Part shown: positions 1 to 33,786 of the stretch, piece by piece | Position numbering within the stretch: the stretch's first letter is position 1 | How the letters are laid out: every line of letters starts with the position of its first letter | Assembly: GCA_021736135.1 (NCBI GenBank) | Contig: JAIPGO010000040.1 | Coordinates: forward strand, 1 to 33,786 | Length of the DNA stretch: 33,786 nt | Source: Candidatus Cloacimonadota bacterium | GTDB taxonomy: Bacteria > Cloacimonadota > Cloacimonadia > Cloacimonadales > TCS61 | Reading direction: 5' to 3' | Translations under genes and position numbers: made by a program | Notes under the pieces: generated by a model | What the model saw: the letters and a program-made list of their open reading frames with translations, nothing else | The model's database searches: none | Told to the model about the DNA's origin: nothing

Positions 1-137
1 TGATAAGTGACATTATAATAGATACTTATAAATGTTCAAACTTGAACTGAAATTGCCAGAAAACAATAATTGTGCATTATTATTGATATTATTCAGCATA
101 AGTTATTGAAAAGGAGTGCCTGAAAGTGAACAGTCTC
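1..137 (+). repeat. 137-bp leader repeat, copy 1 (upstream of TPR kinase 1)
   Basis: Seen directly: positions 1-137 match the reverse complement of 25813-25949 base for base (position p pairs with 25950 minus p), with one difference at position 35. The copy touches the window edge, so its true left end is unknown. The last part (about 100-137) is also present at 33282-33321. In all three cases the element points toward the start of the next gene. It contains AAGGAG at 111-116 and a possible short ORF from GTG at 126. Being this conserved without a long ORF suggests a promoter/leader element, or a recently copied mobile or gene-converted segment. Confidence 0.9.
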
Positions 138-143
138 GGTTAG
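126..143 (+). other. Putative leader peptide, copy 1
   Basis: GTG AAC AGT CTC GGT TAG gives fMet-Asn-Ser-Leu-Gly. AAGGAG lies 9 bases upstream of the GTG, an ideal Shine-Dalgarno distance. The same SD, GTG start and first four codons occur at 25824 and 33295 on the minus strand. The only core difference in the codons (AAC or AAT) is silent. Translation is inference. It could instead be the preserved 5' end of a gene that was lost when the segment was copied. Confidence 0.3.
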
Positions 144-171
144 GATTTCTCAATTAATTTACAAGTTAAAA

Positions 172-214: not shown

Positions 215-2113
215 ATGGAAAGAGAAGCATATTTAGAGCAGATAAGTAACAGTAAAGGGATAGACCGGATAAGGGCTTTATTAAGCTATTCCCGTTACCA
301 GCGTCAGCATGATCCAGCCGCAAGTTGTGAATTGGCAAAACAGGCATTAATTCTTGCGGAAGAACTGGAAGATAGCAAGCTGACAATGTCGGCAATCTCA
401 CACATAGGTTATGGTTATTTCTATAATTCCGAATTTCCGGAAGCAATTCACTGGAGTAATATTCTTCTGAAGAGCAGCGTAAAGAACAAAGACCCGAAAA
501 TGATCGGGGCATCATATAATTTGAAAGCGCGGATATCGTTCCGGCAAACTAATTTATCGCTTTCTCTGGAATATCTGTTAAAGGCACTGGATTATTACCT
601 GGAAACAAACAGCAGGCTTGATCTGATGTGCTGTTATAATGATATGGGAATGATACATCAATATAATTCGGAAATGGATGAGGCATATCATTATTTTAAT
701 CTGGCGCTGCAGATAGCCGAGGAAACAGACAGCCCTTCCCGGCATTCAATTCGCATGAATGTTGGTAATACCCTGTTTGATCAGAAGAAATACGAGGAAT
801 CTCTGGATCTATTTTTAAAATCACTGGATTATTTTAGAAAGCAGGGATTGAGAAACAACGAAGCATCGGTACTGCATAATATCGGCGTTAGTTACTCTCA
901 TCTGGGAGATCTGGACAAGTCGGAAGAATTTTATTTGCGCTCTTATGAACTCCACAAGGAAATCAACGAGCCCAATGATATCTGCCGGGTTTGTTATTCG
1001 CTGGCATCGTTATTGCTCCAGAAAGATAATCCGGAAGCCGCTTTACCTTACCTTGAGGAATCTTTACTTCTGGCGACAACGCATAATATGAAAAGAAATA
1101 TAGAGATGATATATGACCTTTTTGCCTCTTATTACGAAAAAGTGGGTGACTTCAAACAGGCAGTTCAATATCTCCGCAATTCCATGGAACTAAGTAAAGA
1201 AATCTATCAGGAAAGGAACAATGAAAAGATAGCGGAGCTGGAAATAAAATATAAGACACAGATCTACAAACTGAAAAATGCAGAACTTGATGAAAAGACT
1301 GAAGTTATGTCACACCAGATCAACGAACTCAATAATTCTCTGCTTAAATTACAGAATACTCATCAAAAACTGAAGATTGAATTTCAGAATGCCGTAAATA
1401 AATTGAATTCTCAGGATGACATTTTATCATCTCAATCCCGCATGTCGGTTGTAGGTGAAATGGTTTCTTCTATTGCTCATCAATGGAAACAGCCTCTGAA
1501 TGTGATCAATCTTCTGGCGCAATCTATCACGGATGCCTGGGATTTCAATGAACTTGATAAGGAGTTACTGGAAAAACAAGTAGAACTCATCTCTGGTCAG
1601 ATCCAATATATGAATGAAACCATAAACGATTTTCGTAATTTCTTTAAACCGGAAACCATAGAGGAATTCAATCTTGAAGAAGCAGTGACCAAAGCCTTAA
1701 AATTGGCAGAATTCACCCTGGAAAATGCCAATGTTAAGGTTGAGACCGAATATGACAGAGATTTTCGGATCAGCGGGAATCCCAATGAAATAGTGCAGGT
1801 GCTTTTGAACATTATCAATAATGCGAGTGAAGCAATGCAGGGAAACAGCATTCCAGACCCCTTGATCAGGATCACTCTGCAGCAAACGCAGAGTCAAATA
1901 TTTTTCAGGATATTTAATAAAGGACCACAATTATCTGAAGAGATAAAAGCAAAGTTATTTGAACCCTATTTCACTACAAAAGGCAAATACGGAACCGGAA
2001 TTGGATTATATATCTCCCGCATGATCATTGAAAATAAGTATCAGGGTAAGCTGGAAATGGTAAATCCTGCTGACGGCGTGGAATTTCTGATAACTCTGCC
2101 TGTAGCGGGATAG
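215..2113 (+). CDS. Soluble TPR-domain sensor histidine kinase (paralogue 1)
   Basis: A 632-residue protein without signal peptide or membrane segment, so a cytosolic sensor kinase. About residues 20-370 are tetratricopeptide repeats (recurring aromatic/Ala pattern, such as EAYHYFNLALQIAEE), followed by a coiled coil to about 410. The kinase core has the H-box IAHQWKQPLN with phospho-acceptor His422, the N-box LNIINNASEAM (Asn536), an F-box LFEPYFTTK and the G-box GTGIGL from residue 593. The usual DxGxG G1 motif is reduced to NKG. No response regulator lies in the window, so the output is unknown. The ATG at 215 follows a weak SD (GAGG), and a 137-bp repeat shared with a secreted-protein gene lies just upstream. 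About half the residues match the kinase at 4169, by eye, including the same domain order. The endonuclease Q-like gene starts two bases after the stop. Confidence 0.93.
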   Translation: MEREAYLEQISNSKGIDRIRALLSYSRYQRQHDPAASCELAKQALILAEELEDSKLTMSAISHIGYGYFYNSEFPEAIHWSNILLKSSVKNKDPKMIGASYNLKARISFRQTNLSLSLEYLLKALDYYLETNSRLDLMCCYNDMGMIHQYNSEMDEAYHYFNLALQIAEETDSPSRHSIRMNVGNTLFDQKKYEESLDLFLKSLDYFRKQGLRNNEASVLHNIGVSYSHLGDLDKSEEFYLRSYELHKEINEPNDICRVCYSLASLLLQKDNPEAALPYLEESLLLATTHNMKRNIEMIYDLFASYYEKVGDFKQAVQYLRNSMELSKEIYQERNNEKIAELEIKYKTQIYKLKNAELDEKTEVMSHQINELNNSLLKLQNTHQKLKIEFQNAVNKLNSQDDILSSQSRMSVVGEMVSSIAHQWKQPLNVINLLAQSITDAWDFNELDKELLEKQVELISGQIQYMNETINDFRNFFKPETIEEFNLEEAVTKALKLAEFTLENANVKVETEYDRDFRISGNPNEIVQVLLNIINNASEAMQGNSIPDPLIRITLQQTQSQIFFRIFNKGPQLSEEIKAKLFEPYFTTKGKYGTGIGLYISRMIIENKYQGKLEMVNPADGVEFLITLPVAG

Positions 2114-24246: not shown

Positions 24247-25722
24247 CTATTTTATAAGATTTACTTTAACATAACGGTTTAATTTCCCTGCCTGCATCCT
24301 GATAAAATATACGCCGCTGGACTGAGAGGAGGCATTCCAGGTCAGTTCATACCAGCCGGGCTGGGCTATTTCATCAAGAAGCTGTGTTACTTTCCCTCCC
24401 CTGATGTCATAGACATCAATCTTCACCTGTGTTTTTTCAGCCAGGGCATAGGAAAGAATCGTGCTGGGATTAAAAGGATTAGGATATATCGAACTGATAT
24501 CAGTGACCCGGGGAAGGATATTTTGAGGAACAGCGCCAGTATAATTGAAGTCAATTGTCACAATATCCGAACTGCCTTCTTCGAAAACTGCCATTACTGA
24601 GGCAGTATGCTCACCGTAGACATTAGAAAGAACATATTCTGTTTCTTCAGTTACGTCGATCCACTCCAGATCAAGATAGACGTTGTAACCCAGTAATTCT
24701 CTAGTGCGGTTATTTCCGGGAAAAGCAGGCTGCTGCCAGGAAAATTCTACCTGACTATCCGGCAGCAATATAATCTCTAAACCTGCCGGTTCGTCATTAA
24801 ATACGGTTATAACGGTTTCATCCGGATCAGAAACCGCACCCTGACTGTCAGTAACCTGCAATGTAAATATCAGTTCCAGAAATTCAACAGTTTCAGGTGC
24901 CTGAAAAACAGGATTTAAAGCAGCAGGATCACTGAGATTTATACCTGCCGGAGGAGTCCAGAAATATACAAGGTCATCATCTTCAATATCACTGGAAGCA
25001 GAAGCATCAAGGGTCACAGTATTTTGATCACCGGCAATTTGATCAGCTCCGGCAACTGCAAGGGGAATATCATTTATGGGATCAAAGATAATATTGCTCT
25101 CACAGTTTACCTGGTTATTGTGCTCATCTGTAATGTTGAAAGAAATCGTTTCATAGCCGAACCAGTCAGCAGGTGCTGAAAACGTGATATCCAGGCCAGC
25201 CTGTTCGATAACAATTTCTGTGTTACCGGTAAAACCAAGAGTGATTTCATCACCATAAAGTGATACAATATAGGGAGTAAAATCCTCAGTTAAGATTTCA
25301 TCTTCGTTAATGTGAAATGAATCGGGAAGAGTAAAAATCAGGGGAGGAAAAAGTGATAACACTATTCCGCCTGCTCCCAGGGGAAATATTTGAAAATTAT
25401 CGAAAGTAAGCACGTAATCGCCATTGCCTTCTTCACCAGTATCCGGATCAAGCACTTCAACATGAAGCGTATCACCCGCAATCCAGGAAGAAAAAGCACC
25501 ACATTGGATCTGTAAATATTGAGTAATTGTTCCGGTTGGATAAAAACAGTCAGGACTCTCATTATTGAGCACCTGACCTGGATTTACAGTTCTCCAGGCT
25601 TCAAAGAGCAATGTATCAGGATAGCCACCATCTTCATTTACAACCTCAATAAGCACCGGATGCGGCTGGCAATATAACGAAACTGATAAAATTATTATAA
25701 ATAAACTCACATAAAATCTCAT
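24247..25722 (-). CDS. Secreted multidomain protein with QPHPV N-domain and Por/T9SS-like C-terminal domain (491 aa)
   Basis: Close relative of the protein at 24163, with the same order of domains. ATG 25722 has GGAGGGAG four bases upstream and gives a normal signal peptide (residues 1-18, then QPHPV). The frame open to 25779 has no such support. N-domain with CFYPTGT...C, a cadherin-like segment (WFGYETISFNITDE), a PKD-like domain (VAGADQIAGDQNTVTLDASASS), a Fn3-like domain (LLGYNVYLD) and the sorting-type end YPNPFNPSTI to VKVNLIK. It is preceded by the 137-bp repeat (25813-25949) and a TTGACA at 25774-25779. The leader from TAATTTTCATTGACAC to the start resembles that of the gene at 33192, suggesting common control. 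Confidence 0.9.
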   Translation of the reverse strand: MRFYVSLFIIILSVSLYCQPHPVLIEVVNEDGGYPDTLLFEAWRTVNPGQVLNNESPDCFYPTGTITQYLQIQCGAFSSWIAGDTLHVEVLDPDTGEEGNGDYVLTFDNFQIFPLGAGGIVLSLFPPLIFTLPDSFHINEDEILTEDFTPYIVSLYGDEITLGFTGNTEIVIEQAGLDITFSAPADWFGYETISFNITDEHNNQVNCESNIIFDPINDIPLAVAGADQIAGDQNTVTLDASASSDIEDDDLVYFWTPPAGINLSDPAALNPVFQAPETVEFLELIFTLQVTDSQGAVSDPDETVITVFNDEPAGLEIILLPDSQVEFSWQQPAFPGNNRTRELLGYNVYLDLEWIDVTEETEYVLSNVYGEHTASVMAVFEEGSSDIVTIDFNYTGAVPQNILPRVTDISSIYPNPFNPSTILSYALAEKTQVKIDVYDIRGGKVTQLLDEIAQPGWYELTWNASSQSSGVYFIRMQAGKLNRYVKVNLIK

Positions 25723-25785
25723 TACTCCCTCCGGATCATACATCTCTTTAAAGATGGGAAAATCCTCTGAATGTGTCAATGAAAA

Positions 25786-25824
25786 TTAATACAAAGAGAA
25801 GCTATATAGTGAGAGACTGTTCAC
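25786..25824 (-). other. Putative leader peptide, copy 2
   Basis: On the minus strand GTG AAC AGT CTC opens a 12-codon frame (fMet-Asn-Ser-Leu-Ser-Leu-Tyr-Ser-Phe-Ser-Leu-Tyr), with AAGGAG 9 bases upstream. The stop TAA begins the conserved TAATTTTCATTGACAC. The copy at 33295 has exactly the same length although eight middle codons differ. Translation is not shown. Confidence 0.35.
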
Positions 25825-25949
25825 TTTCAGGCACTCCTTTTCAATAACTTATGCTGAATAATATCAATAATAATGCACAATTATTGTTTTCTGGCAATTT
25901 CAGTTCAAGTTTGATCATTTATAAGTATCTATTATAATGTCACTTATCA
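25813..25949 (-). repeat. 137-bp leader repeat, copy 2 (upstream of the 491-aa secreted protein)
   Basis: Reverse complement of 1-137 with a single substitution (25915), lying 91 bases before ATG 25722. It ends sharply on the gene side at 25813, two bases inside the 40-bp core shared with 33282-33321. The far end may run past 25949, but its partner is cut off by the window edge. Within it, TTGAAC-17-AATAAT is a possible promoter. Copies 1 and 2 lie in inverted orientation 25.7 kb apart. Confidence 0.9.
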
Positions 25950-25982
25950 CTGTTTTCGTTTTCCCCATAGGGGATATTTAAT

Positions 25983-26075
25983 TGTAGAAATAGACATCGG
26001 TCATCCCCCTCCACCCCAGCGAGCGGCTCCCCCGGTCGCTGGGGGGGAAGGGGGGGGATAATATTATATTCTACA
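25983..26075. repeat. 93-bp MITE-like inverted repeat with a GC-rich stem
   Basis: Outer ends TGTAGAA (25983-25989) and TTCTACA (26069-26075) are perfect inverted repeats. Inside, ATCCCCCTCCACCCCAGCGA (26003-26022) pairs with TCGCTGGGGGGGAAG then GGGGGGGAT (26036-26059), making a stem far richer in G and C than the surroundings. No ORF. A non-autonomous transposon or a REP-like element is likely. Confidence 0.65.
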
Positions 26076-26143
26076 AATAGATAAGTCCTACGGACTAACT
26101 AACATTCCCTAAACTATCTCAGGAAATTTAGTTTTGTCAATTA

Positions 26144-26296
26144 CGATAATCCTGTGCCTAAAGCGTAGCAGATGTGCACATTTCATCTTCATTTCGATAA
26201 TCCTGTGCCTAAAGCGTAGCAGATGTGCACATTTCATCTTCATTTCGATAATCCTGTGCCTAAAGCGTAGCAGATGTGCACATTTCATCTTCATTT
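26144..26296. repeat. Three tandem 51-bp direct repeats
   Basis: Three identical units start at 26144, 26195 and 26246. Each holds CGATAATCCTGTGCC, TAAAGCGTAGCAG and the palindromic core TGTGCACA. The unit is 17 codons long, so both strands have short open frames of repeated peptides, which I do not regard as genes. Copies are back to back with no spacers, so this is not a CRISPR array. Confidence 0.95.
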
Positions 26297-26633
26297 TAAG
26301 AATTTTGGTAATTATATAAAGAGTTACACTGAACAGTATCTATAGTGAACAGTGATCAGTGAATCGAAAACCGGAATCCGAAACTCGTTGGACCTTGCGG
26401 GCAGTTGGCAAACCTCAGTTAGGTCTTTACTGAGTTCATGTATTATCTATATTAATTTCAGTTCTGTAATAAACAGAATCTGTGACGGAAAAATAAACGA
26501 GAGAAATATGCCCCATTTACTTAGCTCATAAATTTTAAATTGCCCTCAAAATGCTAATAAGGATCATTACATCATATTTCGAAAATATTCTTTATTTATA
26601 AAGTGATAAAGTGCAGGCTGTTATATATGTCAA

Positions 26634-29718: not shown

Positions 29719-32700
29719 CTATTTTATCAGGATGATCTTATTTGTGAGAGATATTTTCGCTGTTTTCAATTGCACGAAATAAAGACCTGAGGGATTATTT
29801 TCGGCATTCCAGACTATTTTGTGATTACCGGCTGGTAGAATTTCATTAACCAGTTCTGTGACTTTCTGCCCTTTCACGTTGAAGATATTGATATTAATCC
29901 TTTCTTCTGATGCCAGGTCAAAGTCAATAGTCGTTTGAGGATTGAATGGATTAGGATAGTTCGCCTTCAATGATGTTGATACGGGGAGCAGGTTTTCTTC
30001 CGTTGCAGATGGATAGTTAAAATCAATGCTGATGATCTCGGAAATGCCATCATCATAAACCGCCTGCACTCCGGCAGTATGTGCACCGGAAACTTCCGTA
30101 AAAAGGAATTCCCTTTCTTCCTCAAAATCCACGAATACGTTGTCAAAATAGACGTTATAACCCGTTAGCTCGCGAGTATTCCTGCTTTCAAGATCAGCAT
30201 TATAGATGCGGACATCATCCAGTTTCAAGAGAAACTGGTCTGTGCAATCATGATGAACAAAGGCAATATATACATTTTCTCCGGCAAAATCCACCAGAGG
30301 AAGAGTGATATCATACCACTGATCATCACTGAGTGTTTCGCTGTAAAGCAATTCGGTAAAGCTGGCAGGAGCCGTATCGGTAATAGATAATAAGACGCTG
30401 TAGTGTTCAGAGAAATGATACTGGTCATTTGCTGCAACCCAGAATTGCAGAGTGGAGAGTCCCCCGATCTCTATTTGAGGAGTGATCAGCCAGTTATCCG
30501 GTTCCAGGGCGATGTTATTCCAGAAAGAAGCGCTGGCAATGCAATTTGTGCCGGAATGGGGAGATTGTGTGAGTATAAACCAGCCATATCCGTCGGCATC
30601 ATTATCAATATTTGTCCAATCCTGAGGAATAACAGAACCTTCAAATCCCTGTTCCAGTTCTTCCCCGCTGCCGCCAGTGCCGGGTGCCAGCCAGGTAAAG
30701 AGTGCTTCATTATCAGGCAGAAGCTCGATCTGCAGGAAAGCTGGTTCGTCATCACAGATCGTGACAATGACTTCATCAGTATCAGTTTCCCGCGCCTGCC
30801 CATCACTTACCTGCAAAGTGAATGTGTAATCTTCTGGGTCAGTCGTCTGGGGTGCTGTGAATGTGGGATTTACGGCAAACGGATCGGAAAGTGTTATTCC
30901 CCCGGGAGCGATCCACAGAAAAGAGAGTTCGTCATCATCAATATCAGAAGAACCTGATGCATCCAGGGTTACTGTTTGTCCGTCATGTACCGTCTGATCA
31001 GCACCGGCATCTGCTGTTGGTGCGTCATTTACAGGTTCAACTGTTATTTCAATATCATCTGAATCGGTTAATCTGCCCAGATTATCATCAATAGTGAAGG
31101 TCATCATCTCACTGCCGTTCCAGTTGGCAGCTGCGGTGAATGTAACCAGTAGTCCGGCAATATCCACGCTGAGCGCTAGATTGCCCGTAACAGATAAAGT
31201 GAGATCATCCGGATCTATTTCCGTTATATATTCACTAAAATCTATAACCAGGGTGCTGTCTTCCGGGAAAGTTAAATTATCAGGCAAAGTGATTTCAGGC
31301 GCATGATTCACGTAAAGAACTGTAACGATGAGCATATCGGGCGGGGAATTGAGATTCCCGTCGTTACAGACCAGGTTGATCATAAATTCGGTATCTTCAC
31401 TCACATCCGGAGCCATAAAGGCCGGTGTCATGGAAGTGTTATCATCAAATACTATCTGCGGCGGGGCAGTCCAGAGATAAGTTATAAGATCACCATCAGG
31501 ATCAAAGGAGGCTGTGCCATCCAGTTGTACTTCCGTTAACTCATCTACGGTGAGATCAGGTCCTGCTATTGCCACGGGAGGATGTTCCAGGCCAATATCA
31601 TGAACGATGACGTATCCGTCAGAAACATTCGTCAGGATTTCAGTCGAGAAAAGTGCATTCTGAATATCGAGTTCTGATTCTCCAAAACAGAAAGTATCAA
31701 AATCAAGATGCAGAAGTAACCCGGCACCGGATATAGGCAGATAATACATATAGGCGATCTCAATAAATCCCGCCGTATTTTCCTCTACCAGCAGCGTGCC
31801 ATTACTGATAATCGTATTCTCTGTGGAATAGCCTGTCCAGCTTAATACATAAGGGTCATATTGAATATCAAGACTGAAGCCGACAACCAACCAGTCCTCA
31901 TAGAGCTGGGAAACTTCCAGAGCAACCGTAAATGATTCCCCGTCATCGATCTCTATAACTGGCAATTCCAGGTATGTATCAGCTAAAGCAAGGATATTTA
32001 CGGACACAGTATCGCAGACAACGTCTCTTTGTTGATCATCATCCACACAGAATACCATTGTTTCCGAGCCATGCCAGCCGTTTGGAACTTCGAAGGTGAC
32101 AACTAAACCCTCGAAAACCGGAGTGATCTGCTGATTACCGCTGACAGATATTTCCAGTTCATCACCATCCACATCCCAGATCATACCGGATAGATCCTGA
32201 ATATATTCGCTCCCATATAGAAACGTTAAATTTTCCGGAATATTAACAACAGGAGCGTCATTTACGGGATTAACAATTACTTCCACCTCATCAGAGGCAG
32301 ATGCTCTGCTAACACCATCACTAACTGTAAATGTAATAATTTCCGAGCCGTTCCAGTCCGGTTCCGGAAGGAATACTACTTCTCCCAGGCTGATCAGAAC
32401 ATCAATATTCTGATTACCGGAACAGCTCAAAGTGAGCTCGTAATTATCTACGTCACTGAAATAGGACGAAAAATCCACCCAGAGTGAATCATCTTCATTG
32501 AAAGTGAAATAGGTAACCGGGATATCAAAGACGGGGGGATCATTAACCGGATCAAAGATAATGTTGATCTGATCGCTAACCGTATTAGAATGCTGGTCAA
32601 TAACTGTGAAAGTTATCAGCTCGCTTCCCCACCAGTTTTCCGGGGCTGAAAAAGTTACATCCAGTCCATTAATATCAACGTATATCTCTGTATTACCTGA

Positions 32701-33192
32701 ACAACTGAGACTCAGGTCATCTCCAAAAATGGACGTGATAAATTGAGCAAAGTACACGGAAAAAAAATCATCTTCGTTAATATGGAATGCTTCAGGAAGA
32801 TCAATTAACAAAGGGGCAACATAAGCTAAAACAATACCACCTGCTCCGATGGGAAAAAGCTGTAAATTCTCATAATTAAGAATATAATTTCCACTGCCGC
32901 CCTCGCTGGTAGCGGGATCAAATACTTCCACATGAAGTTCGTCACCTGCATCCCAATCTATAAAAGAGCCGCACTGGATCTGTAAAAACCAGGTTAAAGT
33001 GCCGGTGGGATAAAAGCAATCCGGTGACCCATTAGTGAGGATATCAGTAGGATTAATAGTTCTCCAGGCTTGAAAGAGCAAAGAATCCGGATAAGCTCCA
33101 TTTTCGTTAGTAACCTCAATGAATACAGGATGCGGCTGGCTATATAAGAAAACTGATAAAATCATTATTAATAAAACTACATAATATCTCAT
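29719..33192 (-). CDS. Large secreted multidomain protein with QPHPV N-domain, cadherin-like, cohesin-like and PKD domains and Por/T9SS-like end (1157 aa)
   Basis: ATG 33192 with GGAGGGAG upstream gives signal peptide 1-18 then QPHPV. Order, with rough positions: QPHPV N-domain (19-125, CFYPTGT...C); three cadherin-like repeats (to about 400, with NDPPVF and NDAPVV links and WNGSEIITFTV); a cohesin-like domain (about 404-530, FSLDIQYDPYVLSW); PKD-like (535-630, VAIAGPDLTVDELTEVQLDG); a fourth cadherin-like repeat (634-725); PKD-like (727-815). Then a cleaved-adhesin/choice-of-anchor J-like domain (849-1000, EQGFEGSVIPQDW...PDNWLITPQIEI), a Fn3-like domain, and the sorting-type end (YPNPFNPQTT at about 1077). 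Probably a surface adhesin or scaffold exported by a type IX-like system. The leader core 33282-33321 lies 90 bases upstream. Confidence 0.9.
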   Translation of the reverse strand: MRYYVVLLIMILSVFLYSQPHPVFIEVTNENGAYPDSLLFQAWRTINPTDILTNGSPDCFYPTGTLTWFLQIQCGSFIDWDAGDELHVEVFDPATSEGGSGNYILNYENLQLFPIGAGGIVLAYVAPLLIDLPEAFHINEDDFFSVYFAQFITSIFGDDLSLSCSGNTEIYVDINGLDVTFSAPENWWGSELITFTVIDQHSNTVSDQINIIFDPVNDPPVFDIPVTYFTFNEDDSLWVDFSSYFSDVDNYELTLSCSGNQNIDVLISLGEVVFLPEPDWNGSEIITFTVSDGVSRASASDEVEVIVNPVNDAPVVNIPENLTFLYGSEYIQDLSGMIWDVDGDELEISVSGNQQITPVFEGLVVTFEVPNGWHGSETMVFCVDDDQQRDVVCDTVSVNILALADTYLELPVIEIDDGESFTVALEVSQLYEDWLVVGFSLDIQYDPYVLSWTGYSTENTIISNGTLLVEENTAGFIEIAYMYYLPISGAGLLLHLDFDTFCFGESELDIQNALFSTEILTNVSDGYVIVHDIGLEHPPVAIAGPDLTVDELTEVQLDGTASFDPDGDLITYLWTAPPQIVFDDNTSMTPAFMAPDVSEDTEFMINLVCNDGNLNSPPDMLIVTVLYVNHAPEITLPDNLTFPEDSTLVIDFSEYITEIDPDDLTLSVTGNLALSVDIAGLLVTFTAAANWNGSEMMTFTIDDNLGRLTDSDDIEITVEPVNDAPTADAGADQTVHDGQTVTLDASGSSDIDDDELSFLWIAPGGITLSDPFAVNPTFTAPQTTDPEDYTFTLQVSDGQARETDTDEVIVTICDDEPAFLQIELLPDNEALFTWLAPGTGGSGEELEQGFEGSVIPQDWTNIDNDADGYGWFILTQSPHSGTNCIASASFWNNIALEPDNWLITPQIEIGGLSTLQFWVAANDQYHFSEHYSVLLSITDTAPASFTELLYSETLSDDQWYDITLPLVDFAGENVYIAFVHHDCTDQFLLKLDDVRIYNADLESRNTRELTGYNVYFDNVFVDFEEEREFLFTEVSGAHTAGVQAVYDDGISEIISIDFNYPSATEENLLPVSTSLKANYPNPFNPQTTIDFDLASEERININIFNVKGQKVTELVNEILPAGNHKIVWNAENNPSGLYFVQLKTAKISLTNKIILIK

Positions 33193-33256
33193 TACTCCCT
33201 CCGGATCATGCAACTCTTTGAATGTGAGAAAAGCCCTCCGAATGTGTCAATGAAAA

Positions 33257-33295
33257 TTATTGCCCGCCGAATCGAATTTCGGAGAGACTATTCAC
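33257..33295 (-). other. Putative leader peptide, copy 3
   Basis: GTG AAT AGT CTC opens a 12-codon frame (fMet-Asn-Ser-Leu-Ser-Glu-Ile-Arg-Phe-Gly-Gly-Gln) with AAGGAG 9 bases before it, stopping at the TAA of TAATTTTCATTGACAC. Same length as copy 2 though the middle is different, and the AAC-to-AAT change is silent. Confidence 0.35.
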
Positions 33296-33321
33296 TTTCA
33301 GGCACTCCTTTTCAATAACTT
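33282..33321 (-). repeat. 40-bp leader core, copy 3 (upstream of the 1157-aa secreted protein)
   Basis: Matches 25811-25850 at 39 of 40 bases (difference at 33290) and therefore also the end of the repeat at 1-137. It lies 90 bases before the ATG, as in copy 2. Upstream of 33321 the similarity stops abruptly, so this is the minimal shared element. Confidence 0.88.
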
Positions 33322-33786
33322 CAGAACACCTGACCTCATAAAAGGTAACTAAATTGTAATACTATACATTTCAATATATTATCTCTTATTCACATTTTAT
33401 CCCTTGCCAAAATAAAGATTTATAATTGAACTTAATTTTTGAAAATCATGGAGGATATAATCAAAGATACGCCGGTAAATGCATTACTCTTCCCAAACTG
33501 AAAGACGTGAAGTCCATTTTCAATTTCTTTGTTATTTGTTTAATCTCTTTCTTTATTGGGCTTATTAGAAATATTTTACCTATATTTAATCCGCCTAAGT
33601 ACCTGTTATATTAATAAATACAGATCTCAAATAAAAAGTGACAATAAAGTGACAGTCTATTTGATTTATTTATATAGCTTTAACCTGTGTTTGTCACTCT
33701 TTTTCATTTTTTTGCAAATACATACCCATTATTTGTATTTTTTTTAGTAGTAATTTAGACCGTAAATATAATGCAATCATTCGGAT
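33322..33786. other. AT-rich end of window, no gene recognised
   Basis: Very AT-rich. A short plus-strand frame (33426-33614) has a hydrophobic end but no SD, no family resemblance and lies in low-complexity sequence. I see no promoter, RNA gene or repeat that I can support. A gene beginning past the right edge may be controlled from here. Confidence 0.45.

Follow-up and report, generated by a model that had tools for sequence, protein, structure and literature searches.

A conserved repeat before Cloacimonadota genes is the right end of a non-coding MITE whose parent insertion sequence probably targets promoters

The 137-bp repeat that precedes a histidine kinase gene and two secreted-protein genes in a Candidatus Cloacimonadota genome is, judged from sequence comparison, the right end of a non-coding MITE of ∼0.4–0.53 kb. 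We consider it very probable (roughly 0.87) that this MITE is mobilised by an unclassified, promoter-targeting IS of the Mutator superfamily from Cloacimonadota, with a transposase that would dock at the target −35 region and cut at a fixed distance from it. Alignment of copies and relatives establishes the inverted ends, the 8-bp duplications, the existence of an autonomous relative, the origin of the MITE's right part in a transposase 3′ end, and insertion in one orientation with the right end 33–35 nt upstream of TTGACA. The window, that is, the whole stretch of 33,786 nt that was analysed, is the entire contig C31 of a 4.14-Mb genome assembled in 148 contigs.

Positions 1–137 match the reverse complement of 25813–25949 at 136 of 137 bases, as a sequence-only reading of the window had reported, and recent copying, one of the explanations it had offered, was borne out. 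The genome holds 24 near-full copies, with 89–100% identity across most of the 137 bp; another ∼16 are older or partial. The repeat exceeds 137 bp; the copy starting at 25813 extends to 26340, and alignment of copies with both flanks gave a homology of 430–530 bp. A third copy recurs as reported, at 37 of 38 bases (33284–33321, corresponding to 100–137). It is not the independent 40-bp core that had been described, and is the right end of the same MITE, since another insertion parts this stub from the remainder. A 29-nt core had no chance occurrence in the window in 100 shuffles. Many contigs begin or finish within the element, which explains why the window opens exactly at the repeat, and because position 1 is the contig start, the truncation of the first copy reflects assembly and not biology.

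The MITE combines terminal inverted repeats, target-site duplications, a lack of transposase coding capacity and a matching autonomous element. Its inverted ends read GA(G/T)ACTGTTCA...TGAACAGTCTC, with the left terminus GA(G/T)ACTGTTCAGTGTAACTC and the right terminus GTGAACAGTCTC in the aligned copies; the terminal C/G is present at the ends, and clear identity between them is limited to about 11–12 bp. Comparison of 42 left and 63 right ends yielded 21 pairs with exact 8-bp duplications (0.06 expected), among them TCACTATA, GCTTAATT and ACTCTTGC, while none of 32 shifted control offsets gave more than one match. Duplication pairs also link contig ends parted by the assembler, for instance C22 and C31. 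Within the last ∼70 bp of the repeat (positions 71–119, forward strand), the decayed 3′ end of a transposase, LCIIIDIIQHKLLKRSA*, matches the C-terminus LKVCNIIDIMKRKLLQGAA* of an IS in another Cloacimonadota genome (G004), which indicates that the MITE arose from an IS by internal deletion. Most copies contain in their middle a variable inverted repeat rich in G/C (CCCCCCAGCGACCGG...CCGGTCGCTGGGG; 25990–26070 in the window), possibly a terminator-like hairpin.

Copy A in the window comprises the right end alone (1–137, forward strand), with its terminal inverted repeat GTGAACAGTCTC at 126–137. The remainder lies outside the contig, and its left end, in contig C22 at 36273, was paired with it through the 8-bp duplication GGTTAGGA (138–145, forward strand). 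The TTGACA of the downstream gene, a −35 box, follows at 172–177, 34 nt beyond the right end; the gene itself (215–2113, forward strand), encoding a histidine kinase with TPR, HisKA and HATPase_c domains, is outside the element. Copy B (25813–26340, reverse strand) is complete, with 528 bp and no ORF of 80 aa. The duplication TCACTATA flanks it on the right (25805–25812) and left (26341–26348), a TTGACA −35 box stands 33 nt beyond its right end (25774–25779), and outside it lies the gene for a secreted protein with a Por_Secre_tail domain (24247–25722, 491 aa from ATG), all on the reverse strand. Copy B carries three 51-bp tandem units (26140–26303, reverse strand), where most copies have one; they form a minisatellite inside the MITE.

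Copy C is the right-end stub at 33284–33321 (reverse strand), with TTGACA 33 nt beyond it (33245–33250) and, outside the element, a gene for a secreted adhesin-like protein (29719–33192, 1157 aa from ATG), both on the reverse strand. It was split by a second, unrelated element (33322–33786, reverse strand) that has terminal inverted repeats CAGAACACCTGAC and a 5-bp duplication AAGTT and is ended by the contig end. This second element is complete in contig C125 (L052, 1872–2396), where it measures 525 bp between inverted ends CAGAACACCTGAC, again with AAGTT and no long ORF, so that copy C is a composite in which it sits inside the MITE. Right ends with the same insert were also found in C88, C125 and C139, each with TTGACA or TTGGCA at 33–34 nt. 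The occurrence of the composite in these different places indicates that it has itself moved.

The sequence-only reading had taken the repeat for a conserved promoter-proximal element, a common promoter or RNA leader that makes the kinase and surface proteins members of one regulon. Each of the three window copies is indeed directed at a gene start, 70–95 nt away and in the right orientation, and many downstream genes encode secreted proteins. The proposal fails at the flanks of the copies, where exact 8-bp target duplications stand as in a transposon, an observation that the reading itself had named as counting against it. The repeat does not contain the −35 box, which follows downstream, and the placement is unchanged where the interior sequence is unrelated (see below). 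No RNA structure emerged from the 137 nt, which folded no better than shuffles (z = +1.23), and an Rfam search gave no match. The genes downstream of the copies are functionally mixed, including those for a DNA ligase, Hsp90, a fumarase-type lyase, a carboxyl transferase, TrkH, a Na/H exchanger, an Mrr nuclease, secreted proteins and the histidine kinase; with no common function among them, a single regulon is not supported. We regard a shared leader as very improbable.

The mobile-element reading is carried further by where the right ends lie. TTGACA, with at most one mismatch, was found 32–35 nt outside 51 of the 63 right ends in this genome, 39 times perfectly; the 63 count among them three stacked junctions and two coding matches due to chance, and ∼2.3% was expected (binomial P about 1e-72). 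The same placement occurred in six of 42 left ends, once perfectly, under a strict left-end pattern. Genuine right ends without TTGACA at 32–35 nt number seven, of which one has it at 31 nt and four (L060, L070, L247 and L248) face another repeat, C(T/A)GGCATCCCCCCG-like, at 30–31 nt. This other repeat begins C(T/A)GGCATCCCCCCGT.TTATTATTCA at those four loci, one copy reading CTAGCATCC. The hexamer belongs to the non-repeated flank, and the DNA between it and the right end is not conserved. Older copies (∼79% identity) have kept the spacing.

The targets resemble promoters in their composition, being AT-rich from −9 to −3, with C or A at −1, then TTGACA, a T-rich position at +27/+28 and a flat profile between. 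With 17-nt spacing, a −10 box would be expected to end at this T (+27/+28). An ORF of at least 100 aa starts 25–330 nt past the hexamer at 43 of 52 element targets, as against 102 of 270 (38%) other TTGACA sites. TTGACA sites that lack an element fall inside genes in 150 of 253 cases; element targets lie within an ORF of at least 120 aa in five of 53, some of these at least being 5′ over-extensions of the downstream gene.

A complete IS of 1828 bp whose ends match the MITE was found in contig C105, with a transposase frame of 504 codons. The transposase (P0001) matched the Pfam models MULE (5.6e-8) and Transposase_mut (3e-7). No NCBIfam cut-off was reached by this DDE transposase, which scored 49 bits against IS6 (NF033587; cut-off 125) and 46.5 bits against IS256 (NF033543; cut-off 150). 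IS256 was rejected as the family on account of a single weak Pfam match and an NCBIfam score under the cut-off. Homologues occur in 10 of 125 Cloacimonadota genomes, with identity down to 28–35%. Residues D268, D326 and E427 and the motif C347-x2-H350 are invariant in the four sequences compared; such a DDE triad with a C(2)H motif is typical of the Mutator superfamily, the C lying 21 residues past the second D here versus 11–19 in the published set (PMC3942029). The enzyme that presumably moved the window copies is identified by the IS ends alone, since the multi-copy IS of this genome is known without an assembled interior.

The sole full-length transposase of this genome comes into frame only through slippage at an A8 tract. 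Two copies (L118 at about 587–600; L170 near the end) have the sequence ATG C A8 C where the transposase starts, an arrangement that could reflect programmed slippage. A short simple repeat array (GAAACCCGAAACTCGA...) lies immediately upstream of the IS at L118, 1–235. A search of genome contigs with the single transposase gave no match, and one with a two-sequence alignment returned PWNZ01000191.1 only. No transposase relatives were found in viral contigs; their 29 DNA-pattern matches may be due to chance, given a 17-base pattern and four spacings. The plasmid collection gave only weak matches (∼24% identity) in regions annotated as IS6-like, a PDB sequence search returned meaningless matches only, and structure prediction without an alignment reached a pLDDT of 38.

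The autonomous ISs follow the same rule as the MITE. In all 13 flanked right ends, from seven genomes (the multi-copy IS of this genome and those of G004, G045, G046, G079, G080 and G081), the hexamer stands at 33–35 nt, as TTTACA or TTGACT in two of them. These right ends have nothing in common with the window repeat beyond ∼12 terminal bases or a transposase end that has diverged. A search left open from 20 to 49 nt placed 114 of 131 matches in 22 other Cloacimonadota genomes at 33–35 nt, and the reversed pattern gave three matches in 125 genomes. As copies with unrelated interiors are placed alike, the link of the window copies to promoters does not stem from the sequence they share.

Such a distribution might also arise if insertion were random and selection then spared only those copies that were harmless or helpful, in this orientation and with a −35 box ∼33 nt downstream. 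Nearly all surviving copies are intergenic and have genes directly downstream, as this account predicts. Tolerated upstream insertions should, however, scatter over −40 to −200 in both orientations, whereas the observed spacing holds within 1–2 nt across families with only ∼12 terminal bases in common. Insertions moreover pile up at the same site. At such stacks a duplication of 8 bp (or 7 bp) separates the end of one element from the start of the next, both elements lying above one promoter; stacks were found at L114/L249 (exact ATTCTGGT), L061 (9035–9042), L254 and, in genome G024, L220 (AACGAGGG). Site re-use is what would be predicted if the distance from the −35 box were measured by a fixed ruler. 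At L068 a copy lies 34 nt from a TTGACA that belongs to an older element and has no nearby gene downstream, a placement that speaks against retention through selection on a gene. Taken together, these data suggest strongly that targeting, not selection, causes the placement; we judge selection after random insertion to be improbable. The stacked elements are arranged head to tail with a common target duplication between them.

In the targeting mechanism that we propose, the transposase, or a complex of transposase and RNA polymerase, would dock on the target −35 region. The cut, at a constant 25–26 bp plus an 8-bp stagger upstream, would fall just above the polymerase footprint. Because the two ends of the element would be treated differently, the right one would come to adjoin the promoter. 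Because genes are spared and promoters left in place, many copies would be tolerated.

What reads the target is less certain. Recruitment through promoter-bound RNA polymerase holoenzyme, a model put forward for TnGBS on the example of yeast Ty3 and TFIIIB, is a realistic possibility, if somewhat short of even odds. The target profile resembles a complete promoter including a −10 signal, and contact with the polymerase initiation complex has been suggested for promoter-targeting Mutator-like elements, TnGBS among them (PMC3942029). The −35 hexamer is, however, conserved far better than the −10 signal, and the elements carry in the left end a TTGACA of their own whose position is fixed, even in MITEs without a gene. 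Among ISs it lies 96–99 nt inside the left end in the present genome and four others; MITEs of the present genome and of G004 have it at that distance too, apart from a few MITE copies with 87–95 or 102 nt and a few that lack it. This hexamer has been kept although its surroundings have diverged and the MITEs have no gene to transcribe.

The left-end TTGACA may serve for docking in the same manner as the target does, or it may be what is left of a promoter. Since the elements examined carry it at 96–99 nt, we slightly favour a transposase that reads the hexamer directly over recruitment by the polymerase. A fuller version, in which the transposase itself reads the −35 hexamer in targets and docks on its own left-end TTGACA, a promoter mimicry serving end assembly and distance measuring, is tentative and on balance doubtful. 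In copy B the hexamer (26135–26140, reverse strand) stands 200 nt from the left end, as against 96 in most copies, on account of the extra 51-bp units. The normal seating of copy B weakens the need for an exact internal spacing; the units may have expanded after insertion, in which case that need could still hold.

Mutator-like transposases are known whose insertions lie upstream of sigma-A promoters in a single orientation, the right inverted repeat adjoining the promoter, at offsets of 15–17 bp (peak at 16 bp) for TnGBS/ISLre2 and 13–17 bp for some ISKra4 elements, in a scan that counted promoters up to 30 bp only (PMC3942029). The element described here resembles TnGBS/ISLre2 (p-MULT 3) in its Mutator-superfamily DDE transposase, 8–9 bp duplications and right end toward a sigma-A promoter. 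It differs in its distance to the −35 box, 33–35 nt in place of 15–17 bp, and in its host, Cloacimonadota as against mainly Firmicutes for TnGBS/ISLre2; no ISLre2/TnGBS model was among the NCBIfam matches at E up to 10, in a comparison made through models alone. The ISKra4 group (p-MULT 4) inserts at 13–17 bp with promoters on both sides, which has been ascribed to nearly perfectly complementary ends (PMC3942029), whereas our element is strict in orientation. IS256 and IS6/IS26 share with it a weak match to the catalytic region and 8-bp duplications, but its transposase scores under their cut-offs and has an extra N-terminal region of ∼200 residues; IS256 insertion has been reported to be likely random (PMC3942029). 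Like bacterial MITEs in general, the MITE is short, non-coding and IS-derived, with inverted ends and duplications; unlike them, it is strictly placed relative to a −35 box. We conclude that the element is a new family, set apart from ISLre2 as far as sequence models tell, with an offset about double that of known promoter-targeting elements. The papers searched held no description of this IS/MITE family, which does not prove that none exists.

To our knowledge, very few bacterial transposons target promoters, and we know of no account of how they measure the distance. The present element adds a further promoter-targeting family with a different ruler, 33–35 instead of 13–17 bp. Its mechanism is directly testable, since the natural insertion sites within one phylum number well beyond a hundred and the element contains a candidate motif; a transposase that inserts just above promoters and leaves genes unbroken could serve as a tool. 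For the annotation of Cloacimonadota genomes a caution follows, as conserved ‘leaders’ in this phylum can be transposon ends. For a phylum that has received little study, the insertions also mark out ∼50 natural −35 boxes, and landing upstream of promoters in a set orientation is a rare mode of transposition that spares genes.
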